A stretch of 64,000 nt of DNA from an uncultured Clostridia bacterium. GTDB lineage: Bacteria > Bacillota > Clostridia > Oscillospirales > Ruminococcaceae. The position numbers and the translations under genes were made by a program. The notes under the pieces were generated by a model that had not been told where the DNA came from, made no database searches, and saw only the letters and a program-made list of their open reading frames with translations. Of the stretch, positions 31,352 to 60,719 are shown in pieces; within the stretch, counting starts at the first letter, position 1; every line of letters starts with the position of its first letter. The DNA lies in contig CAMNXF010000012.1 of NCBI GenBank assembly GCA_946567425.1, forward strand, positions 1 through 64,000, read 5' to 3'.

Positions 31352-31786
31352 ATGGAAGAAATAAGACAGATATGGTGCGAGGAGGACAAGAGGTTTTATC
31401 CCGAAACCAAGACGGAGAACGGCAGAACGTACAAGCTAGACCCACAGACGTTCGTGTATCTGGAGCAAATGGAGTTGGGGCTGACGGACGAGGAACAGGC
31501 TCTGATGAACGAGGATATAGGACAGTACGGGGAGAAGTGGAGGACGTATATGACGGAGAACCACCCCGAAGTGATACCGTCGCTGCAAGGTCGGCTGAAA
31601 TGGGACTTGATACCCAGACAGATAGACAAGGAGGCTATGGAGTATCGGGAGCTGCTGAGGAAACAGTACGCGGAGAAGAACCCGCGCCCGACAACGTTCA
31701 CGGAGATAGCGGAGTGGGAGAACACGCTCGGAATGATGATAGACAGGGCGATAATGGAGGACATAGTGCTGCAATATCGGGATTGA
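31352..31786 (+). CDS. tnpV: TnpV-like protein nested out of frame in the helicase gene
   Basis: A 144-aa frame in +1 phase to the helicase. It aligns with TnpV-family transposon proteins: IGQYGEKWRTYMTENHP (family: IGxYGxxRxxYLxEH), GRLKWDLIPRQIDKEAMEYRELLRKQYAEKN, then a Trp/Asn helix ending DRAIMEDIVLQYRD. It has its own GGGAGG 10 nt before ATG. Codon usage is natural (G/C-ending codons), whereas the helicase frame here uses GGA/CGA-rich, low-complexity codons, so selection seems to act on the nested frame. The role of TnpV is unknown. It fills the variable linker of the helicase, so both could be translated. Confidence 0.6.
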   Translation: MEEIRQIWCEEDKRFYPETKTENGRTYKLDPQTFVYLEQMELGLTDEEQALMNEDIGQYGEKWRTYMTENHPEVIPSLQGRLKWDLIPRQIDKEAMEYRELLRKQYAEKNPRPTTFTEIAEWENTLGMMIDRAIMEDIVLQYRD

Positions 31787-31804
31787 GCAGTGAGGACGAA
31801 AAAA

Positions 31805-31820
31805 TTGCCACATATGGCAA
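31805..31820. promoter_or_regulatory. TTGCCACATATGGCAA site, copy 4
   Basis: Exact reverse complement of the 16-bp site at 15904-15919. It lies inside the helicase gene 18 bases after the nested TnpV-like frame ends. Confidence 0.75.
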
Positions 31821-37800: not shown

Positions 37801-40374
37801 ATTCAGATAAAGGGCTTTGAGAAAACGGATTTTTCGGACAATTTCTTTGACGTTGTCGTGGGGAATGTTCCGTTTGGCAGCTACGGCATTTCGGATAAGC
37901 GGTATAACCGTGAGAATTTCTTTATCCACGATTATTTTATCGCGAAATCTCTTGATAAGGTCGCGCCCGGTGGAATAGTCGCGGTCGTGACCACTAAAGG
38001 CACATTGGATAAGGAAAATCCGCGTGTAAGAGAATATCTTGCTAAACGCGCGGACTTGGTAGGCGCTGTGCGTTTGCCGAATAACGCGTTTAAGGCTAAC
38101 GCGGGTACAGAGGTAACGTCGGATATTCTGTTCTTTCAAAAGCGCAAGGAAATTGCGGTTGAATTGCCCGATTGGTGCTATGTAAGCGAAAATGCGGACG
38201 GAATACCCGTCAACAATTATTTCATAGACCACCCCCAAATGATACTTGGCACTATGAAACAGGGAATGGAATTTTCTATGTACGGCAACGACAAGGAAAC
38301 GGCTTGCGTTCCTATCGAGGGCGCTGTCCTCTCGGAACAGCTTGAAAAGGCGGTCGCAAATCTGAAACTCGACAAAGCCCTCCGTATACATAAGGAGCAG
38401 CGCGAAAGAGAAGCGGGGGTAATTCCCGCCAGAGCGGACGTGCGGAACTTTACCTTTGCCGAGGTAGACGGAAAAATGTACTTTCGCGAAAATAATATAA
38501 TGACCGAGGTCGTTGACAAAAATAATAATCCCATTTTAGGTAAAAAACTTGAACGGCTAAAGGCTATGAACGGATTGCGGCAGACATTCCGTGCTATTCT
38601 GACAGCACAGGAGAACGACTGCTCGGACGAACAGTTACAGACGTATCAGAAAACGCTCAATTCGCAGTATGACAATTTCGTCAAGAATTACGGCTATATC
38701 AACGACAGCGTGAATTTTCAAGCGTTCGGCAAAGATGATGATTATAATTCGCTGTGCGCCCTTGAGGTCATAGATGAGGAAACAAAGACTGTCACTAAGT
38801 CGGATTTCTTCAGCAAGCGCACGGTAAAGCACGTCACGGAGATAACGCACGTTGATACGCCGCAGGAGGCTATGTATGTTGCGATGGATACCCTCGGCAA
38901 GCTGGATTTTGAATATATGGCAAAGCTGTGCGGCAAGGAGCCGTCTGAGGTAGTTGACGCGCTCAAAGCCGAAAATATGATATATCTCAATCCGTATAAG
39001 GCAAACTCGGAAAACGATCTGGAGGGCTGGGAGGAAACTTCGGAATACCTTTCGGGCAACGTTCGGATAAAGCTGAAAGCGGCAGAGGTGGCGGCAAAAG
39101 ATAACCCCGCGTTTCAGCGTAACGTCGCGGCGCTTACCGCCGTTATCCCGAAGCGGATAGAAGCAGGCGAAATTTCGGCGCGTATCGGCGTGCATTGGGT
39201 AGATGTTAAGGATTATCAGGATTTTCTAACGGAATACGCGAAAGCGCGGTTTACGCAGCCTTTGCGCCGCGCGGTAAACGGCGAATACAAAATAGAACGC
39301 AAGGGTTGGGACCAGAGTGCGGCGGCTACGCAGATATACGGCACAAAGCGGCTTAATTCGCTTGAAATATTTGAAAATCTTCTGAATTGCCGTGACGTGG
39401 TAGTCCGCGATAAGAAATATGACCCCAACACGGACAGGGATATTTACGTTATCAACAAAAAGGAAACGGAACTCGCGCAGGACAAGGCAAACAAGATGAA
39501 AGACGCGTTTTCACGGTGGCTGTGGGCAGACCCCGACAGGCGCGAAAAGTACGTTACAAGGTATAACGAGCTGTTCAACAGCATTGTCGGCAGAAAATAC
39601 GACGGCTCACATCAGACGTTCCCCGGTATGTCGCCGTACATCAAGCTGAAACCGCACCAGTTGGACGCGATAGCCCGCGCGAAATTCGGCGGCAATACGC
39701 TGCTTGCTCACTGCGTGGGCGCGGGAAAATCCTTTGAAATGGTTGCCGCGACTATGGAGAAAAAGCGGCTCGGAATGATAAACAAGGCTTGCGTGGTCGT
39801 GCCGAAAAATCTTGTCGGTCAAATGGCTAACGAGTGGCTTAGGCTTTATCCGCAAGCAAAGATTTTAACGGCTACGGAAAAAGATTTTGACAAGGCTCAC
39901 CGACAGAAATTTATCGGTCGCTGCTGTACGGGCGAATATGACGCGGTAATTATGTCTTATGAGCAGTTTGAAAAAACATCAATGTCGTTTGAATACCGCC
40001 GTGATTTCATACAGCGCGAGATAGATACTCTCACCGAGGGAATAGAGGATTTAAACAATGATTATCGGAAAGCGCGTGAGGATCGCAGCTCTATAAAGGA
40101 TATGGAACGCGTAAAAAAGTCGCTTGAGAAAAAACTCGAAAAGCTGATACACGACAACGGCAAGATAAAGGATACCTCTCTGAATTTTGAGCAGTTGGGA
40201 TTTGACAGCATTGTCGTAGACGAGGCGCATAATTACAAAAACGGCTTGGTGGTGACAAAGATGAACCGAGTAGCGGGAGTGCAGACTACCCCTGCCCAGA
40301 AGTCCGAGGATATTCTGATGAAAACGCAGTATCTCAACGAAAATTACGGCGAGAGGAACATAATTTTTGCTACG

Positions 40375-40401
40375 GGAACGCCCGTTGCAGGACTGCAACA
40401 A
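40375..40401. repeat. IME left junction (attL) with inverted arm
   Basis: The helicase gene reads GGAACGCCCGTT up to 40386; the inward arm TTGCAGGACTGCAACAA covers 40385-40401. It mirrors the right-end arm with one mismatch (16/17). The recombinase stop codon begins at 40402, next to the arm. Confidence 0.85.
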
Positions 40402-41922
40402 CTAAATGCTAAATTCAATTTCAATTCCGTTTTCGTCGGAAACTCTCACGACCTCGATCATCGTCGCGGCTACCTCGCGCTTTTCTTCAAGCGATAAGCT
40501 GTCCCACTTTTTAAGCGGCTCGGAAAGCGGTTTCGTGTCTACTTCTTTTTGCTTTCGCTGTCGCTGATTGAGTTTCTTTTCGAGCGCGGTTTTCTTATCG
40601 TGCAGCTCGGCAATGCGGCTCTGTATGTAACCGAAAAGCACATTATCGGCTTTCGGCAGCTTTGCCATAAGGTCGCGGATCTCTTCGTCACAAGCGGCAA
40701 GCTCCGAGTTTATTTTTTCAACCTCGGCGCTTGGTTTAGAGCGTTTCTTTTTTGCAATTTCAAGCGTTTTTATGCGTTCTTTCATTGCCTCGAAAACCGC
40801 CTGTTCCACATCATCGGGATGCGTTTTCCACGTTTGCCGCAAACAGCCTCCGAAACGGCGATAACCGTTATCGTGATAATAGCGGTATTGCCTTGTGTGC
40901 TTTGTATTCCAAGAGGAAACGATAAACGGCGAATAACCGCAGTGGGCGCACTTTACAAGTCCCGTAAGCCACGAATTAACGGACGTTCCGTTGCTCGGAA
41001 TTTTATGATTGTGGCTCTTTTTGTCTTGAACGGCAAGCCAAGTTTCACTGTCGATCAAGCCCTCGTGATATCCGACTTTTATAAACGGCTTAATGCCCTT
41101 TCTGTTGTTGCGGTATCCGTGCAAAAACAGTCCGTGAACGCCGTCATAAGCGCTTATATCATCGAGCATTTCCACGCCCTGCGCCGCGTAGTAACGGTAA
41201 ATTTCCGCGTCCGCGCGGACATACAGCGGGCTTTCAAGCAAGCGTGAAATTTGCGTAACATCAATATTGAAATTTTCCTTACCGATAAAAATTTCACGCA
41301 GCCGCTTTATTACATCGCTTAACGAGTTGGACGGCTCTTTGTAAATCTCATAAGCCGCCGTAATTGCCGCCGCTTCATCGCCCGGAACAAGCACGGAACC
41401 CGTTTTCCCGTTGATCGTGCGGCGTTCGGGAACATACCCGAAATACACCTTTCCGCCTTGATAAAATCCCGTTTCACGCGCCTTTGTGTCGTAAGCGTCC
41501 GCAACTCTGGCGGCTATTGTTTCACGCTCAAATTCGGCAAAGTTCAGAAGATTGTTCCTCATCATTCTGCCCTCTTTTGTTTCCGTGTTGAACGGCTCGG
41601 AGAGCGAAATAACGCTTACTCCCAGCTTATCAAGTGTGTCCGTGATGTTGAGATATTCGCGCATATTACGCGAAAAACGGTCGTATTTCTTTACAATAAT
41701 GCGGGATATTTCACCGTTACGCGCGTCCGTCATCATCTCTTGGAAAGCGGGTCTATGCTCAATATCCTTGCCCGATTTCCCGTCATCACAGTAAATTCTG
41801 AAATCCGCCCCCTCGCCTAAAAATCTGATACATTCCTCTTTCTGCGCGGCTATCGAAAGAGAATTGTTTCCCTTATCCGCGTCGCTTACAGAACGGCGAA
41901 CATATATTGCAGTTGTTTTCAT
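40402..41922 (-). CDS. large serine recombinase of the IME
   Basis: A 506-aa large serine recombinase. N-terminal catalytic domain (1-~145) with YVRRSVSDAD (nucleophile Ser about residue 11), SISRIIV/KKYDRFSRNMREYL (arginine patch), and MMRNNLLNFAEFERE. Then a recombinase domain, a zinc-ribbon (LVKCAHCGYSPFIV … GGCLRQTW), and a coiled coil rich in Glu/Lys (KINSELAACDEEIRDLMAK). It cuts and joins attP with attB without host factors. It is encoded at the left edge with its 3' end against the arm, the usual arrangement. It reads toward the ICE helicase junction, antisense to the helicase read-through tail. ATG at 41922 after TAGGAGGCTGTATT. Confidence 0.93.
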   Translation of the reverse strand: MKTTAIYVRRSVSDADKGNNSLSIAAQKEECIRFLGEGADFRIYCDDGKSGKDIEHRPAFQEMMTDARNGEISRIIVKKYDRFSRNMREYLNITDTLDKLGVSVISLSEPFNTETKEGRMMRNNLLNFAEFERETIAARVADAYDTKARETGFYQGGKVYFGYVPERRTINGKTGSVLVPGDEAAAITAAYEIYKEPSNSLSDVIKRLREIFIGKENFNIDVTQISRLLESPLYVRADAEIYRYYAAQGVEMLDDISAYDGVHGLFLHGYRNNRKGIKPFIKVGYHEGLIDSETWLAVQDKKSHNHKIPSNGTSVNSWLTGLVKCAHCGYSPFIVSSWNTKHTRQYRYYHDNGYRRFGGCLRQTWKTHPDDVEQAVFEAMKERIKTLEIAKKKRSKPSAEVEKINSELAACDEEIRDLMAKLPKADNVLFGYIQSRIAELHDKKTALEKKLNQRQRKQKEVDTKPLSEPLKKWDSLSLEEKREVAATMIEVVRVSDENGIEIEFSI

Positions 41923-41997
41923 AATACAGCCTCCTAATTCAAGTCAGCCGATTATAAACAGTTCCTAAAAAAATTATATCATAATCAGCATAAAAAA

Positions 41998-42180
41998 TCA
42001 AGTGGGATTTTCGGAAAATTTATCATCATTTTCCGTATCATAATCATCGCTCTTTTTCGGCTTGAGAATGTCATACAAGCGGTTAATTTTCTCACGCTGT
42101 ATGCTTTCGGAAACGTGTTCTGGCAGCTTTATCGTGACCTTGAATGTCTTGCCTTTCCATTTGTCTTTTCTGTCTGGCAT
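41998..42180 (-). CDS. small IME protein
   Basis: A 60-aa basic-then-acidic protein: MPDRKDKWKGKTFKVTIKLPEHVSES, then a helix REKINRLYDILKPK and an acidic tail. ATG at 42180 after AAAGGAGAAGCACT. It lies between relaxase and recombinase in the same orientation. Short proteins of this type can act as relaxosome or excision accessory factors, but no family is recognised, so the function is unknown. Confidence 0.6.
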   Translation of the reverse strand: MPDRKDKWKGKTFKVTIKLPEHVSESIQREKINRLYDILKPKKSDDYDTENDDKFSENPT

Positions 42181-42207
42181 AGTGCTTCTCCTTTCTGTAT
42201 TTGCAAA

Positions 42208-43899
42208 TTAGCGTTTGTGGTGATTTTGCTGTTTGGACTTTGATTGTGATGATTGCTTTGCCTGTTGAGCCTTGATGAGGTTGTCGATGTAGTTCCCCTC
42301 AATAAGTTCGTCATAGGCTTTAAGCAGCTCATTTATCCGCGCCAGACGTTCCCTTTCGGGCGCAGGATTGCTGCCTTCGGCGCGTATCTCGTTTATATTT
42401 TCCATAATCTCGCAACCCTTTTTGACAATGCTTTCGCGGTCTGTCAATCTGAACTCGGCGATTGTATTCAACTGCTTAACAAGGTAATCAATATTAGCGT
42501 CATTATGGAAAGTGTAAATTTGTGCCTTGTCGGTCTTTTTCGGTTCGAGCCGAAGTTTTTTGACGGCGGTTGTGACGCTCAATATTTCGGTATAAAAAAT
42601 TTTCTCCGTGCAGGTTACCGTTTGAATTTTTTCATTTGTCGAATTAGCGAAATCATTACGGCTTGAAATACGCTGTTCGAGCCGACCTTGACAGTAATCA
42701 TCACCAAGCGATTTCAAGCGCACAAAACGTTCAGCGTTCGGGTGCTTGACGGCGATATATTTTCCTTGTTTTACCTCGTAGCCTAGCAATTTCAACCTGT
42801 TTAGCAAATCCTCAACAGCGACGGACGAATAGATCAGTCGGTCGATGTCTAAGGCTATTTGCTCACGAATGGTAACGGCATTTTCAAGCGGCGCGTAATG
42901 CGACAAAATTTCGCGCAACGTTTTGATCGCGTAGTTTGGAACATAAAGCGTGCTGCTTTCCGCAACGTGAGGAATTTTCGCACGCGCCAAACCATCTGCC
43001 GCGTATTGAAGTTTGTCGGGATTTAGAACGGTCACGGGGATAAACTTCGCTCCGAGCCGCTTGGTCAGACTTTCGATTTCCTGTTGGAGTTCGGTATACT
43101 TTTGCCGCAAATAATCGTTCTGATTATTAAGCAGCTCAAATTTCTCCGCTGTAAGTTCGGTCGGTTTTTTCTTTTTCAACTCATTGATTTGTTTGTTGAT
43201 TGCAAGGACTGCGGCTTTCTTTTCGGCGAAGTCCTTGTACTCGTCAACGGTCAAATGTTCGCGGTGGATGTTCTTGACATCACGTTCAAATCCGTGCTTG
43301 CGGAGAATTTTCGTCATATACTCAAACTCAGCATCTTTCCAGACTGCCCACTCGGATTTTTTATGCGACTGCGCCGTTATGCCCTGTTCTGCCAACGCTC
43401 TTTTTAAGGACACGCGAGTTGAAAGTCCGCGTGTTTGATTTGTGCATATCGGAACAAAATCAATGTGCAAATGTGGAGTTGCCTCGTCAAGATGAAGAAC
43501 GGCATTGAACACTTTCATATTCGGGTTACGTTCCTCGAATGACTTCATATATTCATCAAGCATTTCTTTCGCCAATTCCCGGTTGCCCGATTTTAAGCCG
43601 CAGCTCTCTGCATCTCCGAATTGAACCACGACCTCGGAAAACAGTTTTTCCTGTTTGCCGTTTTTTATGTGTTCGTAGTAGTCGGCTATTTTTTCGTTGG
43701 AGCGTTTTTTAGAATTGTATTCCGTCAGCGCTTTATCAAAAAGCTGATGATAAAGCTCTTGCAAATTTTCAGACTTGTAGATAACGTTATCGCACGTCCG
43801 AGAAGGGTCAACATTCTTAGGCAAAAAATTTCTGTTGTTATGCTCAATCACGCCGTCATCTACTCGGAACGAAATGGAGAGTTTTGATTTTTCGGTCAT
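42208..43899 (-). CDS. mobV: MobV (Pre/Mob) relaxase of the IME
   Basis: A 563-aa MobV-type relaxase. The N-terminal domain has KLSISFRVDDGVIEHNNRNF and the metal-binding motif HLDEATPHLHIDFVP (His-x-His near residue 145), with YEHIKNGKQ before it. A long coiled coil (QINELKKKKPTELTAEKFELLNNQ) follows, then a helical C-terminus ending ELIEGNYIDNLIKAQQAKQSSQ. It nicks and covalently holds oriT to start transfer. It is homologous along its length to the ICE relaxase at 52909. ATG at 43899 follows GGGAGGAATAAAA; the longer start at 43914 lies on that site. Confidence 0.92.
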   Translation of the reverse strand: MTEKSKLSISFRVDDGVIEHNNRNFLPKNVDPSRTCDNVIYKSENLQELYHQLFDKALTEYNSKKRSNEKIADYYEHIKNGKQEKLFSEVVVQFGDAESCGLKSGNRELAKEMLDEYMKSFEERNPNMKVFNAVLHLDEATPHLHIDFVPICTNQTRGLSTRVSLKRALAEQGITAQSHKKSEWAVWKDAEFEYMTKILRKHGFERDVKNIHREHLTVDEYKDFAEKKAAVLAINKQINELKKKKPTELTAEKFELLNNQNDYLRQKYTELQQEIESLTKRLGAKFIPVTVLNPDKLQYAADGLARAKIPHVAESSTLYVPNYAIKTLREILSHYAPLENAVTIREQIALDIDRLIYSSVAVEDLLNRLKLLGYEVKQGKYIAVKHPNAERFVRLKSLGDDYCQGRLEQRISSRNDFANSTNEKIQTVTCTEKIFYTEILSVTTAVKKLRLEPKKTDKAQIYTFHNDANIDYLVKQLNTIAEFRLTDRESIVKKGCEIMENINEIRAEGSNPAPERERLARINELLKAYDELIEGNYIDNLIKAQQAKQSSQSKSKQQNHHKR

Positions 43900-43914
43900 T
43901 TTTATTCCTCCCAC

Positions 43915-44279
43915 GAAAATTAAGGTTGTATTTTTGGCGAGCGTTTTTCTCGCGGTGTAATTTCGGCACTTGATTTTAGAGCCGATTTTTCAGCGTTACG
44001 GGAAAGTGATTAACTCAATAAGCACTTTCCGTAGTCTGCGACCACCGAAAGCGCCATTGAGTTGTGGCTGCACCCCAAACCCCGCCGTTTGTTTTTCGTT
44101 GCAGATGTGCAAAATGCCCGACTGCCGAAATTGTTTTTTGTTCGGGCAGGAGCAAAATGCTCCTTATCCGAAAATCCGTTATTATCAGCTTATTAACAAT
44201 ATTACATTTCGGCTCATTTTCTATTGCTGTCAATTTATTGATAAGATAGCTTTTTAGTCGAATTTGCTTTATTGTCAAG
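43915..44279 (-). other. non-coding region with candidate IME oriT
   Basis: 365 bases without a convincing gene, upstream of the relaxase. An inverted repeat TACGGGAAAGTG (43997-44008) pairs with CACTTTCCGTA (44023-44033, one bulge); its loop reads (minus) CTTATTGAGTTAAT. The octamer TATTGAGT is shared with the hairpin upstream of the ICE relaxase. Hairpin plus position fit a MobV-type origin of transfer. Further left on the minus strand it is GC-rich with short G runs. Confidence 0.5.
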
Positions 44280-44516
44280 CTATTGACAAGTTGGTACTTT
44301 GACCTCTTGCGGCTTGTCGGGTTCATACGAAATAATGTCGTAAACATCACAATCCATAATTTTGCACAGCTTATCCAAAGTCGCAGTTGAGATAGGTTTG
44401 CCGTGTTTCATTCGGTTTAGCGTGTTGCTGCTAATTCCGTGCTTTTTAATAAGGTCGTAGGTCGTAACTTTTTCATCGCGACCAACCTTCCACCAGAACG
44501 GCTTATAAGTAATCAT
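44280..44516 (-). CDS. XRE/Cro-type regulator
   Basis: A 78-aa XRE-family helix-turn-helix protein: VTTYDLIKKHGISSNTLNRMKHGKPISTATLDKLCKIMDCDVYDIISYE. This is the complete five-helix HTH typical of small Cro-like repressors. ATG at 44516 follows AGAGGGGGAAATTTA; the longer upstream ATG lies on that site. It likely controls IME mobilization or excision genes. Confidence 0.85.
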   Translation of the reverse strand: MITYKPFWWKVGRDEKVTTYDLIKKHGISSNTLNRMKHGKPISTATLDKLCKIMDCDVYDIISYEPDKPQEVKVPTCQ

Positions 44517-44696
44517 TAAATTTCCCCCTCTCAAAAAATGCTTGGCAACAAATTCGGAAAGAATATTTTACAAAGCCGAAAAAGAAAAACGGCGGGGAAG
44601 AGCCGAAAAAATATCAAGGAAATTTTCGTTAACCTAAAGATTATGTTCCGAAATGCTCCGCCTCACCGACACCTCATTTTCTTTCAGCCTTGTAAG

Positions 44697-44903
44697 CTAG
44701 TCCTCCGCGCTCGGTTCGCTTTCGTGTTCCCGTTTGATTTTCTCGATAGCCGCAAGCGCTTTGCGCTTTGTCGGCTCGTCCAACTCCTTGCGAAGCCAAC
44801 GGATAAAGGTCGGCTCGGACACGTCCAACTTCTCGGCGATCTCGTAAAGGAATACCCCCGCGCTCTTTGCGGCGGCGCGAATTTCCGTGTTGCGTTTGGT
44901 CAT
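44697..44903 (-). CDS. small HTH DNA-binding protein
   Basis: A 68-aa protein with a helix-turn-helix: AAAKSAGVFLYEIAEKLDVSEPTFIRWLRKELDEPTKRKALAAIEKI. The recognition helix EPTFIRWLRKEL and its size resemble excisionase-like or Cro-like ICE/IME regulators. ATG at 44903 follows GGAGGGTTACACA; an ATG 15 bases upstream lies on the ribosome site. It is divergent from the larger XRE regulator at 45106 and driven by the leftward promoter at 45003-45031. Confidence 0.7.
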   Translation of the reverse strand: MTKRNTEIRAAAKSAGVFLYEIAEKLDVSEPTFIRWLRKELDEPTKRKALAAIEKIKREHESEPSAED

Positions 44904-44940
44904 TGTGTAACCCTCCATCTAAAGATTTTTAAAATATCAC

Positions 44941-44969
44941 TTGACAAATAACCCGATTTGTGGTATTAT
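44941..44969 (+). promoter_or_regulatory. rightward promoter of the IME regulator switch
   Basis: TTGACA, 17-bp spacer, TATTAT. Preceded directly by AAAATATCAC, which has its inverse GTGATATTTT at 45040-45049. Confidence 0.8.
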
Positions 44970-45002
44970 TATTATAAAGGCGGTTATTGTGGTGATAGGT
45001 TT

Positions 45003-45031
45003 ATTATAGCACAGCCTTTACCCAATGTCAA
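45003..45031 (-). promoter_or_regulatory. leftward promoter of the IME regulator switch
   Basis: On the minus strand TTGACA, 17-bp spacer, TATAAT. It faces the rightward promoter 34 bases away, so each promoter fires into the other. Confidence 0.82.
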
Positions 45032-45105
45032 CCGCGAATGTGATATTTTATAGCATATTCCACAAATTAAATCTTTTGTGTGTCGAAAAAGGAGGAAACG
45101 ACAAT

Positions 45106-45726
45106 ATGAACGAGAAAACCACCACAAACGAAATCTTTGGTATCAGGCTCAGGGATTTACGCAAGCAGAACGGCTACACCATTGAGCAGTTCGCGGCGAA
45201 AATAGGCGTAGCAAAAAGCACACTGGGCTATTACGAAAACGAGAACCGTATGCCCGACATTGAGATTTTATGCCGAATTTGCAATGTGTTCAACGTCCCC
45301 GCCGATTATCTTCTCGGACGGACGAACACGGCGGCGGTCAAAGGGAAAATGAAAACCGTGTGCGAGCTCACGGGGCTTTCGGACGCAGCGGCTGATATTT
45401 TATCCGAGCTTCTCAAACATCAACGCTATGGAACGCTTGACAAGCTGAATTATCTGATTGAGGATTTTGCTAATGATTGTAATGAAGATTACGATATGCA
45501 AGGAAATAAGAACCTTGAAGATACGAGCAGTATCCTTAATGCGCTGTTTGGCTATATGGAGAAATATTCGCGTTATGAGAATGCGCTCGACTTTATGGAT
45601 ATTGAGGATGTTGCGCGTCAGCAGAAAGCTGAAACGGTTTACAGAGAACTGCTTATAAGGCGCATAATTGACGCGGTCAAGATCGGTACGGAGGAGTACA
45701 AGGAGCAGCATAAGCCGTGGGAGTGA
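45106..45726 (+). CDS. XRE-family transcriptional regulator
   Basis: A 206-aa protein with an N-terminal XRE HTH (FGIRLRDLRKQNGYTIEQFAAKIGVAKSTLGYYENENRMPDIEILCRI, then NVFNVPADYLLGR) and a ~130-residue helical C-terminus (LSELLKHQRYGTLDKLNYLIEDF) for dimerisation or sensing. This is the larger repressor of a divergent-promoter switch. ATG at 45106 follows AAAGGAGGAAACGACAAT; upstream in-frame ATG at 45025 is inside the promoter. It likely represses IME genes until a signal arrives. Confidence 0.85.
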   Translation: MNEKTTTNEIFGIRLRDLRKQNGYTIEQFAAKIGVAKSTLGYYENENRMPDIEILCRICNVFNVPADYLLGRTNTAAVKGKMKTVCELTGLSDAAADILSELLKHQRYGTLDKLNYLIEDFANDCNEDYDMQGNKNLEDTSSILNALFGYMEKYSRYENALDFMDIEDVARQQKAETVYRELLIRRIIDAVKIGTEEYKEQHKPWE

Positions 45727-45742
45727 CTTTCGGGCATAGAAA

Positions 45743-45771
45743 AGCCGCCGAACGTTTTGCGTTCGGCGGCT
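45743..45771 (+). terminator. strong hairpin after the XRE gene (weak T-tract)
   Basis: AGCCGCCGAACG, 5-nt loop TTTTG, CGTTCGGCGGCT: a perfect 12-bp stem. It is not followed by a clear T run, so termination is likely but not certain. Confidence 0.6.
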
Positions 45772-45785
45772 ATGTATCGCTTGTC

Positions 45786-46121
45786 ACAGCGAGGATATTT
45801 TCAGCCAGTGCAAATTCCAAGCGGATCGATACTATGGGGCAAGTGAAACAGGCGGCGGCGTGTGAGATCGCGGACAAGCACGACGTTAAGTCCGAGGACG
45901 ATATCGCCAATCTGGAGAAGAGTTTGAAGTTGCTCCAGAGCGAGGTTAAGTCGGTTAAGGCAGAGTTGTCCAACGAGCAATTAAAGCTCAAGCGCGTTTC
46001 AGATTTGATTGCGGCTTATGAGAAAATCGTTGAAGGGAATTACATTGACAGACTTATTAAAGCGCAAAAGAACCTCGCACAAAGCAGGACGGCAGAAGCA
46101 CCTACAATCATTATATCGTAA
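45786..46121 (+). pseudogene. 3' fragment of a MobV relaxase gene
   Basis: An open frame without its own start whose product matches the C-terminal ~100 residues of the ICE relaxase at 52909: RIDTMGQVKQAAACEIADKHDVKS against RLDTMEQVKQAAAREIADKYNVKS, and QLKLKRVSDLIAAYEKIVEGNYID against QLKLKRVSDLITAYENIVEGNYID. The N-terminal relaxase domain is absent, so it is non-functional. It points in the same direction relative to the secreted cassette as the ICE relaxase does, showing this DNA derives from a similar ICE. Homology begins about 45786. Confidence 0.85.
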
Positions 46122-46126
46122 AAAGG

Positions 46127-46168
46127 AAACCCTTTCCAAAAAAATAGTCGATTTTGGAAAGGGTTTTT
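46127..46168 (+). terminator. Rho-independent terminator
   Basis: AAACCCTTTCC and GGAAAGGGTTT enclose an 18-nt A/T-rich loop; TTTTT follows. It mirrors the terminator after the intact ICE relaxase in position. Confidence 0.85.
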
Positions 46169-46483
46169 CAAAACTGAACACGTCACGGATTTTAAAATTT
46201 TTATAGTAAGTGTATAAAGCTAAGTTATCTATTGAAAATGCGTCCCTTTAACAGAAGAAAGATGTCCGCAAATCCTAACGCGTTTGAATAGTTGAATAAG
46301 GTGTGTTTGCATTAATGATCAATGTTCGTCTGTTAGCAGATTTTCTGATACGAATTATAGCCTTGTTTTGCATAAATCCGTATCAAAGTTTATCCACTTC
46401 GATCAAAATGAACACTCTCAATCAAATATGGTATTTAATGCGCTTATTATCAAACATACTGGCATTATCAATTGATGGAGTAA
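46169..46483. other. AT-rich gap, nothing recognised
   Basis: About 315 bases, notably AT-rich. A short plus-strand frame (46303-46506) has no ribosome site and no family resemblance; I see no RNA gene or clear repeat. Probably decayed sequence joining the relaxase fragment to the secreted cassette. Confidence 0.5.
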
Positions 46484-47317
46484 TTAGACGGAGTAATCAA
46501 AAGTGAGCGGCTTTGCAACCGAGTCCTTCATTCCTGAAAGGTTAATTGTTACACCCAATCCATCTTTGGCAATTGTCAACGTGTTGAATAAACTCTGGTT
46601 ATGTACATATTCAACATTTATTGAGGTATGTCGGGTTTTTCCAGAGTAAATGTTTGACCTGGGTTGCAATGTAAACTTCGCAGTTCCTTTTTGAACCGTG
46701 GAAAAATTAGGGGAGCTCCCCATTTTTATGCTATAACCTAAACCACCTTGATTTAGTTGCTCGGGATCGCTTGACGTGTTAGTAACTATCCAATTGGTTT
46801 GATCACCGATTGAAGACGATAAATAATCTGTAGATTGAAATGAATTTGGTTTTAACAAGAAAATCGATGAGTCCCAATTCACCGACACCGCGTCTGTCAA
46901 ACGAAAGAACGGCTTTCCATTATACCATCGGTAATCAACGTACACATCGGTTTCAATTATCCGGAAATATGAGGACGATGTGCTTGATGCATCATATACA
47001 TTAACTTTTGTGATTTTCAACATCATGTCATCGCTGGGAATAACTCCAAGCAATGAAATATCAGACGGATCAGCTGTTTCAGTAAGACTAACGGTTTCTG
47101 TCCCAAGATACTCAACAGTCTTACCGTAGTATGACACATATATATCGTCTATATCCTGAGTTTCCTTATCGTTAAGAAAATCCTCAGGAATGCCTTGCGA
47201 AATTAAGTATTCTATTTTATCTTCCGTAGTAATCTCTACGGTCGATGCGGATACCATTGTAACGTTTACCATTGCCGTCAAAGCAATAGTCAGTAAGAAT
47301 ACGACTAGTTTTCTCAT
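46484..47317 (-). CDS. secreted protein of the IME cassette
   Basis: A 277-aa protein with a signal peptide (MRKLVVFLLTIALTAMVNVTMVSAS, likely cut after SAS or nearby) and no membrane anchor. It has a short helix (EDKIEYLISQGIPEDFLND) followed by beta-rich sequence with Ser/Thr/Tyr and SVNWDSSIFLLKP. I do not recognise the family. ATG at 47317 after GGAGGAAAACA. It is the terminal gene of the leftward cassette (sigma, membrane protein, secreted, small membrane protein, this one), so it is probably a target gene of the sigma factor. AT-rich relative to the ICE core. Confidence 0.6.
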   Translation of the reverse strand: MRKLVVFLLTIALTAMVNVTMVSASTVEITTEDKIEYLISQGIPEDFLNDKETQDIDDIYVSYYGKTVEYLGTETVSLTETADPSDISLLGVIPSDDMMLKITKVNVYDASSTSSSYFRIIETDVYVDYRWYNGKPFFRLTDAVSVNWDSSIFLLKPNSFQSTDYLSSSIGDQTNWIVTNTSSDPEQLNQGGLGYSIKMGSSPNFSTVQKGTAKFTLQPRSNIYSGKTRHTSINVEYVHNQSLFNTLTIAKDGLGVTINLSGMKDSVAKPLTFDYSV

Positions 47318-47475
47318 TGTTTTCCTCCTATATCACAACTTGAAATAATTAACAACAAACCTATAATTCCGATTGCTATGCCAACAAGGAACAAAATACT
47401 CCCTAAATCAAAGGTGGATCCGTTTGAAAGCAAAATTCCAAACAATAGCAATCCAATTCCCAATTTAAACTTCAT
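47314..47475 (-). CDS. 53-aa two-helix membrane protein
   Basis: A small gene, too short for routine calling: start at 47475 with AGGAGGGGATA before ATG, sequence MKFKLGIGLLLFGILLSNG, a short loop (STFDLG), a second helix (SILFLVGIAIGIIGLLLIISS), ending CDIGGKQ. The stop overlaps the next gene's start (AATGAG), so the two are coupled. Its topology (two short helices, basic start) resembles small immunity-type or accessory membrane proteins of secreted-peptide systems. No family assigned. Confidence 0.65.
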   Translation of the reverse strand: MKFKLGIGLLLFGILLSNGSTFDLGSILFLVGIAIGIIGLLLIISSCDIGGKQ

Positions 47476-47522
47476 TATCCCCTCCTAATAATCGAATGTA
47501 TAGACATAGAAGTTTTATACAT

Positions 47523-47969
47523 CTATACAATCTTTTTTTCAGAACTGTAAATGGTTATCGTTTCTTGCCTTCCGTTGTCATTCGTCAGCGTAAAAACAGA
47601 TTTTACACGATATGTCCCATTTTTGAGATTGGACTTAGTGTTGTACAGACAAACAAAGTTGAAGTCTGTGGTTTCTGTCCACGTTGCTCCATTTACATCT
47701 TCCCAAATCCACAAACCCCAGTACTTTTGCAAGGTTTGTGTTACGGTAATGCTTATAGCGTCTGTACCCTTCGCTATGCTTTTACACTCTGCTATTCCGC
47801 CTACAATTTCCAAATTGGATGAACAACTGTTTGTAATCTCATATGCGGGTGAAATTCCGTAGTTTGCAATCGATGTCACAGTTGTTGTGTCAGCATAGGT
47901 AACGACACTAAAATTTGAGCACAAAAGAATTGCTGCTCCAAGCGAAGCTATCTTTTCTTTGAGATGCAT
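47523..47969 (-). CDS. secreted protein, paralogue of 58833-59273
   Basis: A 148-aa exported protein. Signal peptide MHLKEKIASLGAAILLCSNFSVVTYADT with probable cleavage after YAD. The mature part (~120 aa) is beta-rich with TVTQTLQKYWGLWIWEDVNGATWTETT and YRVKSVFTLTNDNGRQETITIYSSEK. Nearly the same layout occurs in the protein at 58833-59273 (TLQKYWGLWFWDSVDGAEWTRTV; YRVKSVFTLTDQNGKSETITVYSSE), so the two are paralogues. ATG at 47969 after GGGAGGAGGAGTTACCG. A shared upstream region suggests common promoter control. Function unknown; could be a secreted effector or toxin-like protein. Confidence 0.7.
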   Translation of the reverse strand: MHLKEKIASLGAAILLCSNFSVVTYADTTTVTSIANYGISPAYEITNSCSSNLEIVGGIAECKSIAKGTDAISITVTQTLQKYWGLWIWEDVNGATWTETTDFNFVCLYNTKSNLKNGTYRVKSVFTLTNDNGRQETITIYSSEKKIV

Positions 47970-48067
47970 CGGTAACTCCTCCTCCCTTTGTATTATTAGG
48001 TTTTTTTCTCCCCTTACTTAATACATCTTTCGAGAAGCGGTTTGGGTAGGTCAAATTATAAAAATTT

Positions 48068-48790
48068 TTAAAGTTTGGTAATATTCAACAAACTCATAGC
48101 GCTGTTTTTATCTAAATCTGCCGAAATTTCAATTATGTAATCTCCATTATCCCAAACAAAAACCGAATTACTTCGCTTATCGCTACTTAAATCAATAAAC
48201 AACCTCATAGTATCGTTTAGCTCAAATTCTTCAAACGTTTTATTTTCGGTGTTGTAATGCGGCGTAAATTCGGATTTTACCCATTGGTTTAGAGTTATGA
48301 TTTGTTTTGTGGAACTGTTTAAATAAAGCGTACAAATGTTAGTTGTCGACGGTATAGTTTCGATCAACTCAAATCCCTCTGGTATGTTGGTTAAAACATA
48401 CTGATACGCTATCGTTTGGGGGCAGTTTTCCAAATTAGCAACAAACAACTGCGTATTATTCTCATAGACCGTTCCGTTAAAATGCTCTGAAACGAATTTA
48501 ACAACAGCGGTTACACAACCTGCAAGCAGCGTCATAAGGATAATGATAAGTGTAGCTATGAGTATACGCTGTTTTAAATTGTATCTTCTTGTCCTATTTT
48601 CGGTTATTGACGGTTTCTGAATTGTTTCGGCATTTCTCAGTTTACGAGCGTTTCTTTCAAATCGAGCAAATATCCTTTTCATAGCTATGCGATGTCGGAG
48701 AGAGGGATTGAAATTGGGCAGGTCATCAGGTACCCCGCACTCAATTTTGTGTACATCAAGCATAATCTCCCTAAGAACATTTTCACTCAT
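48068..48790 (-). CDS. membrane-anchored DUF4367-like protein (candidate anti-sigma factor)
   Basis: A 240-aa protein: a cytoplasmic N-terminus (~1-80) with SLRHRIAMKRIFARFERNARKLR, one membrane helix (ILIATLIIILMTLLAGCVTAVVKF), and an exterior domain resembling DUF4367 (QTIAYQYVLTNIPEGFELIE … NQWVKSEF … DNGDYIIEISADLDKNSAMSLLNI). An N-terminal cytosolic part plus an outer sensing domain next to a sigma gene is the architecture of anti-sigma factors. ATG at 48790 overlaps the sigma gene (AAAGGA 10 nt ahead), hence co-translated. Paralogue of 59375-60085. Confidence 0.72.
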   Translation of the reverse strand: MSENVLREIMLDVHKIECGVPDDLPNFNPSLRHRIAMKRIFARFERNARKLRNAETIQKPSITENRTRRYNLKQRILIATLIIILMTLLAGCVTAVVKFVSEHFNGTVYENNTQLFVANLENCPQTIAYQYVLTNIPEGFELIETIPSTTNICTLYLNSSTKQIITLNQWVKSEFTPHYNTENKTFEEFELNDTMRLFIDLSSDKRSNSVFVWDNGDYIIEISADLDKNSAMSLLNITKL

Positions 48791-49337
48791 TGCACTTGTT
48801 CCTTTCATCAATGAAATTTCTGATGTTTTTTCTTGCCGTTTTCAAATGCCATTTTACCGTTTCACGGGATATTTCCAATTGTTCGGCAATCTCGCTTATT
48901 GACAAACCAGTTATAACGCGCAGCTTGTACACAGTCCGCCTTTGTTCGGGCAACGTGAGTATGTATTTTATCAGTTCCTCGCGGGTATTTTTGGTTATAA
49001 CATCGTCTTCTATTCTCATACTCTCGTCAACTATATCCTCACGCAAATCCTGAAGTTTGCTTGTTCGATAGCTCTCCTTTTTGAACGTACCTATAGCGGT
49101 GTTTCTGACGAGTACGTCAACAAAAGTGACCCTTTCCTCTTTCGGAACATTAAAGAATATTTCGGGCTTATCCGCAATATCCGAAAAAACCTCTTGAATA
49201 ACATCCGCGGCGCTTTCCTCATCATTCACCTTTTGCATAGCTATATACATAAAGCGTTTGTAGTTTTCAGCATAGAAAACTTGTAGTTCATTACGTTGTA
49301 CGTCATCTGTGATAGTTGAAAACGTTATACCAATCAT
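48783..49337 (-). CDS. sigma-70 family (ECF-like) sigma factor of the IME cassette
   Basis: A 184-aa sigma factor. Region 2: FYAENYKRFMYIAMQKVNDEESAADVIQEVFSDIADKPE. Region 4: LPEQRRTVYKLRVITGLSISEIAEQLEISRETVKWHLKTARKNIRNFI (a LuxR/sigma-4 type HTH). It directs RNA polymerase to target promoters. ATG at 49337 follows AGGGGTGAGAATACT; the longer start at 49382 lies in the promoter. The promoter TTGTCA-N17-TATACT (49354-49382) is conserved with that of the sigma gene at 60627. It overlaps the next gene, fitting sigma/anti-sigma coupling. Confidence 0.88.
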   Translation of the reverse strand: MIGITFSTITDDVQRNELQVFYAENYKRFMYIAMQKVNDEESAADVIQEVFSDIADKPEIFFNVPKEERVTFVDVLVRNTAIGTFKKESYRTSKLQDLREDIVDESMRIEDDVITKNTREELIKYILTLPEQRRTVYKLRVITGLSISEIAEQLEISRETVKWHLKTARKNIRNFIDERNKCNE

Positions 49338-49353
49338 AGTATTCTCACCCCTT

Positions 49354-49382
49354 AGTATACAGTATAGCATATTTTTTGACAA
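49354..49382 (-). promoter_or_regulatory. conserved promoter of the IME sigma gene
   Basis: TTGTCA, 17-bp spacer, TATACT on the minus strand, followed by AAGGGGTGAGAAT. It is nearly identical over ~40 bases to 60642-60670. Confidence 0.7.
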
Positions 49383-49392
49383 AATACAATGC

Positions 49393-49550
49393 TTATTTCA
49401 TATTTACAACGAGGCAACCGATTTCATATCCGTTTTGCTCCGTTATTTCAAAGTCTAGTATACACGAAACGCTTATCCCCATGCCGTCCGCAAACAGCAG
49501 CTTGAAGAAAACATCATCAAGCCGCTTGATTGTGCCGATTTTCACAACAA
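49393..49550 (-). pseudogene. 3' fragment of a YolD-like gene
   Basis: The frame on the minus strand encodes KIGTIKRLDDVFFKLLFADG and SCILDFEITE, which match the C-terminal 40 residues of the YolD-like protein at 60720-61127 (KVGTVKRIDEVFFKLLFTDG; SDILDFNITE). The first ~90 residues are missing and the stop is displaced by 14 codons. It lies just upstream of the sigma gene, as in the intact ICE locus, so it marks the right breakpoint of the captured segment, about 49550. Confidence 0.8.
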
Positions 49551-49584
49551 GCAAACATTTTGCAGATGATTGACGCAATGAAAA

Positions 49585-49624
49585 CAGCCCCTTGTCGATT
49601 TTCTCTCGGCAAGGGGTTGTTGTT
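49585..49624 (+). terminator. hairpin near the IME right end
   Basis: CCCCTTGTCGA and TCGGCAAGGGG (one wobble) with a 7-nt loop, then TTGTTGTTT. It insulates the IME from the helicase 3' part or ends transcripts coming from the ICE. Confidence 0.6.
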
Positions 49625-49656
49625 TAGGAACGGTTCTATAATCGGCTTTGTCATAT

Positions 49657-49687
49657 TTGTTGCTGTCCTGCAATCGGCACGCCTGTT
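49657..49687. repeat. IME right end: inverted arm and attR junction
   Basis: The arm TTGTTGCTGTCCTGCAA (49657-49673) is the inverse of the left arm with one mismatch. ATCGGCACGCCTGTT follows and the helicase resumes at 49688. The shared GTT (49685-49687 and 40384-40386) is the likely crossover region. Confidence 0.85.
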
Positions 49688-51550
49688 AGCAACAGTATGG
49701 TCGAATTATACATTATGCAGAGATATCTCCGTCCGTCGCTCTTGGCACAGGCGGGTATGCAGACGTTCGACGATTGGGCGAACACGTTCGGCGAGGTCGT
49801 TTCCAAAGCCGAATTAAAGCCCGCGGGCAACGGTTACAGAACCAAAAAGCGATTTGCCAAATTCAACAATCTGCCCGAGTTAATGGCAATGTATAAGGAA
49901 TTTGCAGATATTCGGACAGCGGATATGCTGAATTTACCTGTTCCCGAAGTAAAGGGCGGCAAGCCCGAAACCATTGTAGCAACTACAAACGACTTTCAGA
50001 AGGCATATATGCAAATTCTCGCGGAACGCTCCGAGGCGGTACATAACGGGAGCGTTGAAGCAACGGTAGACAATATGCTGAAAATAACGGGAGAAGCGCG
50101 TTTGCTCGGATTGGACGCGCGGTGCTTAAATCCCGACGCGGAAAATTATCCCGACAGCAAGGTCAATCTCTGTATCGACAAGGTTATGGAGATATACACC
50201 AGAACGACAGCGCAAAAGGGCGTACAGGCTATCTTCTGCGATATTGCCGTAAACGGCGATAACGAACAGGAGGAACTGACCGACGATAAAAAGAAGAAAA
50301 CGGTCAAGCCGAACGATGAGGGGAAGTTTTCCGTCTACAACTACATTAAGGCTGAACTTATCCGGCGCGGTATTCCCAAAGACGAAATATGTTTCGCGGG
50401 CGACGCGAACACGACAAAACAGCAAAACGAGATGAAGGCTCAGTTACGGTCGGGGACAAAGCGCATAGTCATCGCGTCCACATCAAAACTCGGTACGGGC
50501 GCGAACATTCAGAACAAGCTGGTCGCGCTCCACAACTTGGATATTCCTTGGAAACCGTCCGATTTAGAGCAGCGCGTTGGTCGAATAGTCCGTCAAGGCA
50601 ACGAAAACAGCGCTGTGGAATTGTACAATTATGTTACCAAGGACACGTTTGACGCGTATATGATGAACATAATCGTCACAAAGCAGAAATTCATTTCTCA
50701 GCTTATGAGCGGTGATACCTCGGCGCGTTCCTGTGAGGACGTTGACGAAATGGTTTTGAACTATACCGAAATGCAGGCGTTGGCTACGGGCGATCCGCGT
50801 ATCAAGGAGAAGATAGAACTCGATACGGACGTTGCGCGTTTGAAAATGCTTGAAAGCGAATACTACAACGAGCAGTACAGACTTGACGATACGATTAAGG
50901 ACGCGGAGATCGGCATAAAAAATCTGGAGCATAACATCTCGGCGGCAAAAGCCGATATTGAATTTGCAAAGGAGAACGTGCTGCCAAGCGAGGAATTCAG
51001 AGTTGAAATAAGGGACAAGGTTTTCACGGAACGCAAGGCGGCGGGCGAGGCGCTGCGGCAGGAGGCGGTCGCCTTTCTCGCAAACGATAACGGAACCTTG
51101 CATTTGTCGATTGGAAATTTCCGAGGTTTTGAACTGGCGATTGAAAGAGGTCACGATTATTTAGGCAAGGCGGTTGCCGAGGTTGCCGTTCGGCACGGAA
51201 TAACCTATACCGCTGCTATGGAAATCACGGGCGATATTGGAAACGTTACCCGACTTGAAAATCTTGTAAATGACGGTATCGGTAAGAAACTTGCGGCTAT
51301 GGAGGACAAACTTGTCGTGTTGCAAGGCGATTTAAAGGCGGCTCTTGAAAGCAAAGGCAAACCGTTTGAACACGCGGAGGAACTTGAAACAAAATCGAAG
51401 CGGCTCACTCAGCTTAACCTTGAACTTGAGGTCGGGAAAGCTGACGAGGTTATTATGGACGAGAAGGAAGATGAGGACAGGGATAGTCCAAGACGCGATA
51501 ATCCCGAAAACGACCGCGACAAGCCCAAACCCTCACGCGGCAGACATTGA
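49688..51550 (+). pseudogene. SNF2 helicase, 3' part (split by IME)
   Basis: 620 codons completing the giant helicase. It starts exactly after the IME with SNSMVELYIMQRYLRPSLLAQAGM, the continuation of the GTPV motif. The C-terminal RecA-like lobe then shows IFCDIAVNGDNEQ, IASTSKLGTGANIQNKLVALHNLDIPWKPSDLEQRVGRIVRQGNEN (motifs V-VI with arginine finger), and SQLMSGDTSARSCEDVDEMVLNYTEMQALATGDPRIKEKIELD. A coiled-coil and acidic tail close it. Frame 1 before and frame 2 after the element, with element length 9301 = 3n+1, agree exactly with a restored gene on excision. An ATG at 49697 could allow translation of the fragment alone, but there is no strong ribosome site. Confidence 0.92.
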
Positions 51551-51613: not shown

Positions 51614-52585
51614 ATGTACTATGGTTTTACTGACGAGCAGTTACAAGCCGCCAGAGGTGCAAATCTCGCGGAGTACTTTCAAACTCACGGCTACGACTGT
51701 GAGCTGCGGCGAAATGAGCTGCACGTCAAGGGCTTTGGCGGCTTTTACATAAAAACCGATACCAACGAGTGGTACTGCTTTTCAAAGAGCGGCAAAAACG
51801 GCGGCAGAAACGCCGTAAACTGTTTAATGGAAATGCTCGGAATGGATTTGAAAACCGCTGTTTCCGAGTTGTCGGGCGACTCATACTTTTGTCCGATCTC
51901 CTATGAGCGATATTCCGAACCGCCGCCCAAAAAGCGGGAATTGGATTTGCCCAACCGAGCGGACAATATGAAAAACGTATTTGCTTATCTTTGCGGAACG
52001 CGTAAGATCGACAGCAATATCGTTTACGGTCTGGTATGTGACAGCCTGCTTTATCAAGATAAACGCGGCAACGCCGTTTTTCTCCATAAGAACGAGGACG
52101 GGAAAATCATCGGTGCGGAACTGCAAGGCACGAATACATACAAGCGTTTCAAGGGAGTAGCCGCGGGAACATCGGACAGCTTGTTTGCGGTCAAGATTGG
52201 AACGCCCGACAGAGCCTACGTTTTCGAGAGCGCAATAGATTTGTTGTCGTTCAAAATGCTTGCTAATCAAGATAAAATACAAAACTCCGTTCTTGTATCT
52301 ATGGCGGGGCTAAAGCCGAACAGCCTAAAACCTTTGTCGGAGAACGGATTACGGCTTTATGCCTGTGTGGATAACGACGAGGCGGGTATCAAGTTTACCT
52401 CGGATAACGGCATGATACCCTGCAACAGGATTTTACACGAGAACGGTGTAAAGGATTTCAACGAGCTGCTCCAACTGATAACGCACAATCGAGAAATGGC
52501 GGCGAAAAGCACCGCGCCGCAAAATCAGCCCGACACTCGGAATGAGGTCAAAACCGTTGCTAAAGTAAATCATACTCACCGCTGA
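51614..52585 (+). CDS. DUF3991/TOPRIM primase-like protein
   Basis: A 323-aa protein. The N-terminus has a CHC2-like degenerate fold (HGYDCELRRNELHVKGFGGFYIKTDTNEWYCFSKSGKNGGRNAVNCLMEMLGMDLKTAV). The TOPRIM domain begins RAYVFESAIDLLSF, with the acidic LYACVDNDEAGIKF. Proteins of this family act as ICE primases or DNA-processing nucleases that prime complementary strand synthesis. ATG at 51614 follows TAGGAGGTTTTACT. It lies between helicase and relaxase, the usual place. The Lys/His-rich tail is of no clear function. Confidence 0.85.
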   Translation: MYYGFTDEQLQAARGANLAEYFQTHGYDCELRRNELHVKGFGGFYIKTDTNEWYCFSKSGKNGGRNAVNCLMEMLGMDLKTAVSELSGDSYFCPISYERYSEPPPKKRELDLPNRADNMKNVFAYLCGTRKIDSNIVYGLVCDSLLYQDKRGNAVFLHKNEDGKIIGAELQGTNTYKRFKGVAAGTSDSLFAVKIGTPDRAYVFESAIDLLSFKMLANQDKIQNSVLVSMAGLKPNSLKPLSENGLRLYACVDNDEAGIKFTSDNGMIPCNRILHENGVKDFNELLQLITHNREMAAKSTAPQNQPDTRNEVKTVAKVNHTHR

Positions 52586-59273: not shown

Positions 59274-59374
59274 TTAGTTCCCCCCCTTTCTGTATACTAT
59301 TCTGAGGTTTTTAGTCCCTATATTATATACATTCTTTTTTTTATACGATTAGGGAGATTAACTATTCCTTTCTT

Positions 59375-60085: not shown

Positions 60086-60087
60086 CG

Positions 60088-60627: not shown

Positions 60628-60641
60628 AATGTTCACCTCTT

Positions 60642-60670
60642 AGTATTAAGTATATCACAAATTCTGACAA
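60642..60670 (-). promoter_or_regulatory. conserved promoter of the sigma gene
   Basis: TTGTCA, 17-bp spacer, AATACT on the minus strand, preceded by TTGTATTTTG and followed by AAGAGGTGA. The equivalent at 49354-49382 shares these elements, giving a conserved ~40-bp promoter. Confidence 0.7.
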
Positions 60671-60719
60671 AATACAAGATTTTTTCATATTAACAACAAT
60701 GCGGCTGATCTCAACCGCA

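Follow-up and report, generated by a model that had tools for sequence, protein, structure and literature searches.

What has split a long open reading frame (ORF) of a conjugative element in two, where exactly did the break occur, and what does it mean for the element that carries it? These questions are raised by the window analysed here, the first 64,000 nucleotides (G000:C12:1-64000) of a 97,185-base contig from the draft genome (2.9 Mb, 40 contigs) of an uncultured Clostridia bacterium of the Ruminococcaceae. The window carries an integrative and conjugative element (ICE), one of whose genes, ORF 30640-40497 on the plus strand, reads on into a guest element, while its C-terminal half restarts with an ATG at 49697 on the same strand. 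A sequence-only reading had described the locus as a nested integrative and mobilizable element (IME) in an ICE helicase gene. Our comparisons make it very probable that a DarB-like methylase-SNF2 gene of the ICE was invaded by an IME, with the crossover at the dinucleotide AC. Thus, the IME-like element inside an ICE gene is retained from that reading, and the helicase gives way, by family match, to a DarB-like antirestriction gene.

Element ends and the crossover dinucleotide

The guest element occupies positions 40380-49680 (9,301 bp). Its arms, TTGCAGGACTGCAACAA (40385-40401) and, reversed, TTGCAGGACAGCAACAA, match at 16 of 17 positions, and the recombinase ORF 40402-41922 on the minus strand comes straight after the left arm. 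The length of the element, the splitting of one ICE ORF (drawn then at GTPV|SNS, here after the residues Gly-Thr-Pro, GTP), the inverted 17-bp arms and the adjacent recombinase had all been described from the sequence, and each is borne out by our analysis of the ORFs, the arms and the related loci. The trinucleotide GTT, taken earlier for the shared crossover, was ruled out by the mosaics of host and element bases at related junctions, which point to AC instead.

The motif GG-x-ACGCC-y-GTT is present at both junctions of the window. In the left junctions of 26 relatives ACGCC is invariant (26/26), and the base before AC is A in 14, C in 10 and T in two. At 16 uninterrupted sites of the genus, the base after AC is G in nine, T in six and A in one; of eight right junctions (the window, L043, L160, G602, G598, G567:C31, G567:C36 and G579), seven have C and one has A just ahead of AC, and the base that follows AC varies. 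A sharp step in identity is seen against locus L009, the closest recombinase relative in named records (97% identity; 'uncultured Clostridia bacterium isolate Lapin-023', a name that suggests a rabbit gut source): in 50-base blocks, 34-38 positions agree in the four blocks before the core, whereas the block directly beyond it is fully identical (50 of 50) and the following seven have 44-48 agreeing positions. Finally, when the element ends are joined, 40 of 50 positions are symmetric about AC, so that a pseudo-palindrome results. In 100,000 shuffles of the arms the highest value obtained was 32, and the centre of symmetry is unaffected by the join position chosen within the shared stretch. Since the junction mosaics, the identity step and the symmetry of the joined site (attP) agree, the crossover dinucleotide is best placed at the AC of the Thr codon. 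The residues expected after excision (GTPVSNSM) are unaffected by this shift of the core, which exchanges one Pro codon for another (CCC/CCT), and the in-frame empty site predicted earlier is matched, in an alignment check, by the genes of uninterrupted relatives.

The guest recombinase has a resolvase N-terminal domain, a recombinase domain and a zinc ribbon, all exceeding Pfam cut-offs, as in large serine integrases. The attP sites of these enzymes are reportedly pseudo-palindromic, with about 50 bp contacted (PMC3783163), and a pseudo-palindromic attP of about 50 bp with a 2-bp core was found for the guest as well. In addition to its own integrase and defined ends, the guest carries its own relaxase, 53% identical over 498 residues to that of the host ICE. 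A scan of ten ORFs lying between the junctions gave no match to VirB4, VirD4 or any other mating-channel gene, and the gene set fits an IME. The host element combines a CD1115-family VirD4, a CD1110-family VirB4 and a Mob_Pre relaxase, which places it with the ICEs of the CD1110/CD1115 (Tn1549/CTn) kind.

The interrupted gene and its occupied and empty relatives

Four domains of ORF 30640-40497, YodL, MutS_I, LPD25 and ResIII, exceed the Pfam cut-offs, and matches to a methylase (Eco57I) and to SNF2 are weak and lie under the curated cut-offs. When the two parts were searched apart, both matched PHROG 10089, 'DarB-like antirestriction': the 1,025-residue piece before the junction with E = 0 and the right half with E = 2e-135, at profile positions that are consecutive across the split (1569-2594 and 2602-3232). 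The fusion of an adenine methylase to an SNF2/SWI2 motor with DarB-like homology is thus recognized by PHROG 10089, the Pfam support being below cut-off. Going by the order of SNF2 motifs, the break falls within the first lobe of the motor. Among methylase-SNF2 dyads the archetype is DarB of phage P1, which protects DNA in cis, and YodL and LPD25 are described there only from polyvalent proteins of conjugative elements (PMC5512222). Because both halves match the same PHROG, in line with the domain lists for polyvalent proteins, the split 'ICE helicase' looks like a DarB-like antirestriction protein and not like core transfer machinery.

Recombinase relatives were followed at 74 loci and helicase sites in 43 genomes of the genus; the two counts overlap, since some contigs are shared (e.g., G603 = L009, G602 = L019). 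The left helicase part was matched in 21 of the 43 genomes. From 31 match rows three partial ones were dropped, and the remaining 28 sites comprise ten occupied at the GTP codon, 16 uninterrupted (ATGTPVSNS-like) and two that end at or before the site because of contig ends. The uninterrupted gene of G578 is 85-87% identical to that of the window, its two halves lying exactly one codon apart. G606 has one occupied and one uninterrupted copy, with left parts 97% identical in DNA. The uninterrupted gene at L214 (G583:C3, site near 28793), counted among the 16, reads GTLCSNSM in place of GTPVSNSM at the target, possibly a scar of imprecise excision or else a simple mutation. Occupants of the same site are also found in records titled Ruminococcus flavefaciens YRD2003, YAD2003 and FD-1 and R. 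albus AR67 (L028, L029, L035, L062, L040).

At 26 of the 74 recombinase loci the left half of the gene stands at the GTP site; one more locus (L043) has the right half there and another (L051) is elsewhere in the gene. The rest consist of 34 loci without a helicase at the junction, four with less than 150 bases of flank and eight with a truncated recombinase. A tree was built from 59 recombinases, omitting partial sequences and three that have internal stops; in it, members at the helicase site are scattered over several clades, and near-identical members occur at other places. Together with the 34 non-helicase loci, this scatter indicates that the ICE gene is a favoured target of these elements and that other targets are also used.

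Two comparisons bear on mobility. At L009 (G603) the recombinase and the relaxase (466 residues, cut by the contig end) are 97% and 94% identical to those of the window, with a flanking helicase of only about 65%; in G602 the helicase is 92-93% identical to that of the window, yet the guest recombinase only 64%. A near-identical recombinase therefore lies at the corresponding codon of a helicase gene that clearly differs from that of the window, which argues that the element moves. Searches of plasmids and phages with the recombinase and the gene halves gave more distant relatives only; two relatives, L126 and L127, come from viral contigs. Related recombinases also lie at GTP-like codons of other genes at L021 and L012; on inspection by eye, the gene at L021 seems to be another SNF2 helicase.

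Some loci called for separate treatment. L043 seemed inverted, suggesting two insertion orientations, yet GGC-AC stays on the element side, and we therefore place the recombinase gene at the opposite end of that element. At L065 the recombinase is cut by a contig end and the helicase piece is about 130 residues short, so its placement is ambiguous. An empty allele co-existing in G567 (C46), proposed from contig-end flanks, was not taken as proven, as a k-mer break against another occupant fits at least as well; a hybrid ICE at G567:C31 found no support either, both of its halves being closest to the same three genomes (G579, G585, G594). The right flanks of L170 (G567:C36) and L165 (G567:C31) agree without a difference over the first 104 bases beyond the core and diverge thereafter (about 67% identity over 891 bases), either through local gene conversion or as an assembly effect; hence, the pairing of element ends with ICEs in G567 is not certain.

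Sequence comparison shows the target, the core, its occupancy, the repeated use of the site by different elements and the presence of both relaxases. In the proposed mechanism, a large serine integrase would have recombined attP with an attB that consists of the conserved codons for Gly-Thr-Pro in the SNF2 domain. The integrated element would leave the gene as two ORFs, and precise excision would rejoin it in frame. Two routes of transfer would be open to the guest: in cis as part of the ICE, or, after excision, by means of its own relaxase and the ICE mating channel. Excision by large serine integrases normally needs a directionality factor, and the 73-residue protein of the guest is a speculative candidate for such a factor or for a regulator. 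Integrase activity, excision, mobilization and the loss of gene function are what we infer for this locus.

Several observations weigh against this account. The DarB-like function is predicted from family similarity. Excision is unobserved, because the circle junction (attP) of the window element was found in none of the 43 genus genomes (at most two mismatches) and in no viral contig (exact pattern), the circles of other occupants not being searched for. At 62 loci the recombinase end is intact and the flank measures 150 bases or more, and 34 of these have no helicase match at the junction. Certain related occupants, as in G602, lack a relaxase match, and thus some occupants are not IMEs. The right junction of G579:C41, with an A, is the one that departs from the C before AC seen in the other seven. 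In addition, three of the ten occupied genus copies have short frames (G579, 210 residues; G606:C45, 215 residues with a stop; G580:C151, 196 residues), so that some occupied siblings look broken, whereas all 16 uninterrupted copies have frames of at least 752 residues.

Consequences for the host element

The sequence-only reading had also proposed a parasite-host switch, in which transfer of the ICE is gated by excision of the guest. Both halves in the window are open and keep the native frame, and two interrupted copies show nonsynonymous divergence (dN) of about 0.05 against synonymous divergence (dS) of about 1-2, near saturation, which would speak for such a switch; however, open halves may only reflect a recent insertion, and some of the occupied siblings look broken. 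The switch was argued for streptococci, with induction of conjugation triggering IME excision (PMC5357655), and a Tn1806-like ICE nested in snf2 re-transferred as a composite only rarely, at 8.6e-8, some nested copies moving alone (PMC12942858). A snf2-interrupted ICE of Streptococcus suis gave no transconjugant with an S. suis recipient, but the same ICE entered S. thermophilus at about 2e-3, and moved onward, with IME excision undetected (PMC7168690), and ICESp2905 transfers with an IME in its snf2 (PMC5704250, PMC5357655). Moreover, the interrupted gene resembles antirestriction and not core transfer machinery, and no excised form was seen in the 43 genus genomes or viral contigs. As ICEs of streptococci are transferred while carrying insertions of this kind, an obligatory switch is possible but not favoured, and we regard it as rather unlikely; a weakened protection of the ICE in a new host seems to us a more likely effect of the insertion than blocked transfer. 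Somewhat less credence still is due to a dead end, with a guest that no longer excises and both elements decaying. The short frames in three of ten occupied and none of 16 uninterrupted genus copies, the relaxase remnant within the guest and the missing circle (43 genus genomes, viral contigs) would be in agreement with it, as would the defective related elements and truncated snf2 genes of S. suis (PMC7168690). Nevertheless, the recombinase, the relaxase and both gene halves of the window are open, the arms show near symmetry, a close relative occupies another helicase gene, and further insertions, not decay, may account for the short frames of the siblings.

It is improbable that the halves are made as separate polypeptides and reassemble, the insertion being tolerated without loss. 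Both halves are long open frames, the right one opening with the ATG at 49697, and promoter-like matches lie ahead of it on the plus strand at 49316-49345, 49376-49404 and 49541-49570 (four on both strands; shuffle mean 1.1). This ATG, however, encodes the Met that belongs natively to SNSM and that most of the uninterrupted copies seen also have; inspection by eye showed no obvious ribosome-binding site ahead of it, and by the motif order the cut falls within the first motor lobe. As to an assembly chimera, or a chance likeness of the element ends to the target, the draft state of the genome in 40 contigs leaves room for the former, but the same junction recurs in 27 of the 74 loci, from several studies and including genomes of Ruminococcus strains; given these independent occurrences, such an artefact is very unlikely, and invasion of the DarB-like gene by the IME, with crossover at AC, is the reading that we retain.

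The same gene family is hit repeatedly. In G602:C28 (L164 and L168, 7443-33502) one gene is cut twice, at GTP and about 298 residues on at IPWKPSD, the recombinase of the second insert being 26% identical. In the genome of the window itself, a second DarB-like ICE gene (L121, G000:C20:1-9557) is cut at IPWKPSD by a serine-recombinase element that carries a relaxase, a related helix-turn-helix (HTH) repressor and a type II methylase/restriction-enzyme pair. At L040:11600-14600 (R. albus AR67), a group II intron (Rfam RF00029, RF02004) lies about 45 residues upstream of the GTP site, and a comparable break near residue 148 is seen in L026, L049, L051 and L080. PADLOC, run on eight ORFs of L160, L164 and L165, gave no match for seven and partial matches for one ABC ATPase of L164. 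It could be imagined that distantly related serine-integrase elements converged on the antirestriction motor of gut ICEs at two separate conserved motifs, GTP and IPWKPSD, at times both within one gene, as reversible counter-defence locks, such that an occupied ICE would be limited to hosts without matching restriction and excision during transfer would restore the protection of both partners; we hold this to be a long shot.

Candidate origins of transfer (oriT) were sought upstream of the relaxases. The TGAGT-loop hairpin of the ICE has a z of -3.4 and is the only one in the window with at least 9 of 14 pairs around that loop; for the guest candidate, the best predicted fold is a different hairpin. 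The sequence TATTGAGT recurs upstream of the relaxase, about 100-115 bases from its start, in the ICE, the guest, the C20 element and the element of G567:C31, and the longer stretch CTATTGAGTATAG around it is shared by the ICE, C20 and G567:C31. These matches suggest related oriTs across the elements, least clearly for the guest.

The coordinates are collected in Table 1. The relaxase remnant of the guest (45717-46121) shares 83% DNA identity with the ICE relaxase (232 bases compared) and looks like a leftover of recombination between the relaxase genes of guest and host. The DUF4367/ECF-sigma cargo of the guest (47701-49543) has diverged homologues at two other places of the same genome, within the host ICE (59011-60828) and at L123 (G000:C25:1-9000), the longer stretches being about 66-69% identical in DNA. 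The 907-residue product of an ICE ORF (25250-27973) is probably a surface repeat protein, as it weakly resembles the repeat parts of internalin models and a Listeria-Bacteroides repeat, with scores under the cut-offs. No resistance family was matched above cut-off among the 40 window ORFs run against NCBIfam; one small HTH regulator has a weak match to VanU, far below cut-off.

Table 1. Features of the host ICE and the guest element (window positions, except the last row)
Feature	Position	Strand	Basis
VirD4-like coupling protein of ICE (CD1115 family)	13119..15371	+	Family match
VirB4-like ATPase of ICE (CD1110 family)	17386..19782	+	Family match
N-terminal part of interrupted ICE gene, polyvalent protein, DarB-like	30640..40377	+	YodL, MutS_I, LPD25, ResIII; weak methylase, SNF2
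Crossover core AC, left junction, Thr codon of GTP	40378..40379	.	26-junction mosaic; attP symmetry; identity step against L009
Left (P') arm	40380..40401	.	Arm comparison, symmetry
Large serine recombinase/integrase	40402..41922	-	Resolvase, Recombinase, Zn-ribbon
Relaxase, MobV/Mob_Pre-type, 568 residues	42208..43914	-	Mob_Pre above Pfam cut-off; NCBIfam MobV score under curated cut-off
Weak oriT candidate of guest, TTATTGAGT	44000..44050	-	About 100 bases upstream of guest relaxase start
Cro/C1-type HTH regulator, small (HTH_26)	44280..44534	-	Family match
73-residue protein	44697..44918	-	Relatives on 6 of 16 related loci tested
Repressor-like regulator (HTH_3)	45025..45726	+	Family match
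Relaxase remnant ORF	45717..46121	+	Last 105 residues match ICE relaxase C-terminus (69%)
Cargo ORF	46484..47317	-	No NCBIfam or Pfam match; signal-peptide-like N-terminus (by eye)
Cargo ORF	47523..47969	-	No NCBIfam or Pfam match; signal-peptide-like N-terminus (by eye)
DUF4367 protein, likely anti-sigma partner	48068..48811	-	Family match
Sigma factor, ECF-type	48783..49382	-	Family match
Right (P) arm	49654..49678	.	Arm comparison, symmetry
Crossover core AC, right junction	49679..49680	.	Junction comparison
C-terminal part of interrupted gene, helicase C-terminal domain	49681..51550	+	Native frame open from junction; first ATG 49697
Toprim/DUF3991 protein of ICE	51614..52585	+	Family match
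Candidate ICE oriT, hairpin with TGAGT loop	52785..52819	+	About 110 bases upstream of relaxase start
Relaxase of ICE (Mob_Pre/MobV-like)	52909..54816	+	Family match
Tyrosine-integrase-like ORF past window end, candidate ICE integrase	C12:70089-71267		Named by eye

Relation to known nested elements

IMEs in ICE snf2 genes, and the idea of a switch, are already published. IME_SsuT15_SNF2, IME_Spy2096_SNF2 and the tet(O) fragment of ICESp2905 are likewise serine-integrase IMEs that disrupt, at a fixed point, the conserved snf2/methylase gene of Tn5252-superfamily ICEs (PMC5357655, PMC5704250), and in one of the two streptococcal snf2 IMEs the recombination site lies beside the 3' end of the integrase gene, as in the window. 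The streptococcal cases belong to another host group and ICE lineage and are likened here by description, not by sequence or insertion codon; moreover, many S. suis snf2 IMEs carry resistance genes, whereas none was found in the guest ORFs scanned. S. suis IMEs in Tn1549_COG4646, found in silico, are inserted in an SNF2-like gene of a Tn1549-related ICE (PMC7168690), again a likeness by description and not by exact site; ICEs of this type are probably closer to the conjugation genes of the window. Tn1806-like ICEs in snf2 of ICESpy009 show the same site-specific nesting in a methylase-helicase gene, with partial independent excision and transfer by mating, but there the guest is a full ICE, unlike the IME-like guest described here (PMC12942858). 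Both halves of the window gene match the DarB-type methylase-SNF2 polyvalent proteins (PMC5512222; PHROG 10089), and antirestriction by its product is a prediction.

Serine-integrase IMEs are common in gut Firmicutes (PMC6907783), and one gut IME family has been published (PMC12904643). The titles and abstract openings that we surveyed, with subscription journals mostly outside, include the streptococcal cases and no paper plainly about the Clostridia family described here. The present analysis adds the position of the AC core, the range of hosts, the finding that the gene is occupied repeatedly and even doubly, and the DarB-like reading of the target. A habit of nested IMEs known mainly in streptococci is thereby extended to gut Clostridia, including strains of R. 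flavefaciens and R. albus, where the many insertions and empty alleles form a natural set for asking whether guests in ICE genes control the host element. Overall, the DarB-like view of the disrupted 'snf2 helicase' would help to explain how an ICE can still transfer once this gene is disrupted.

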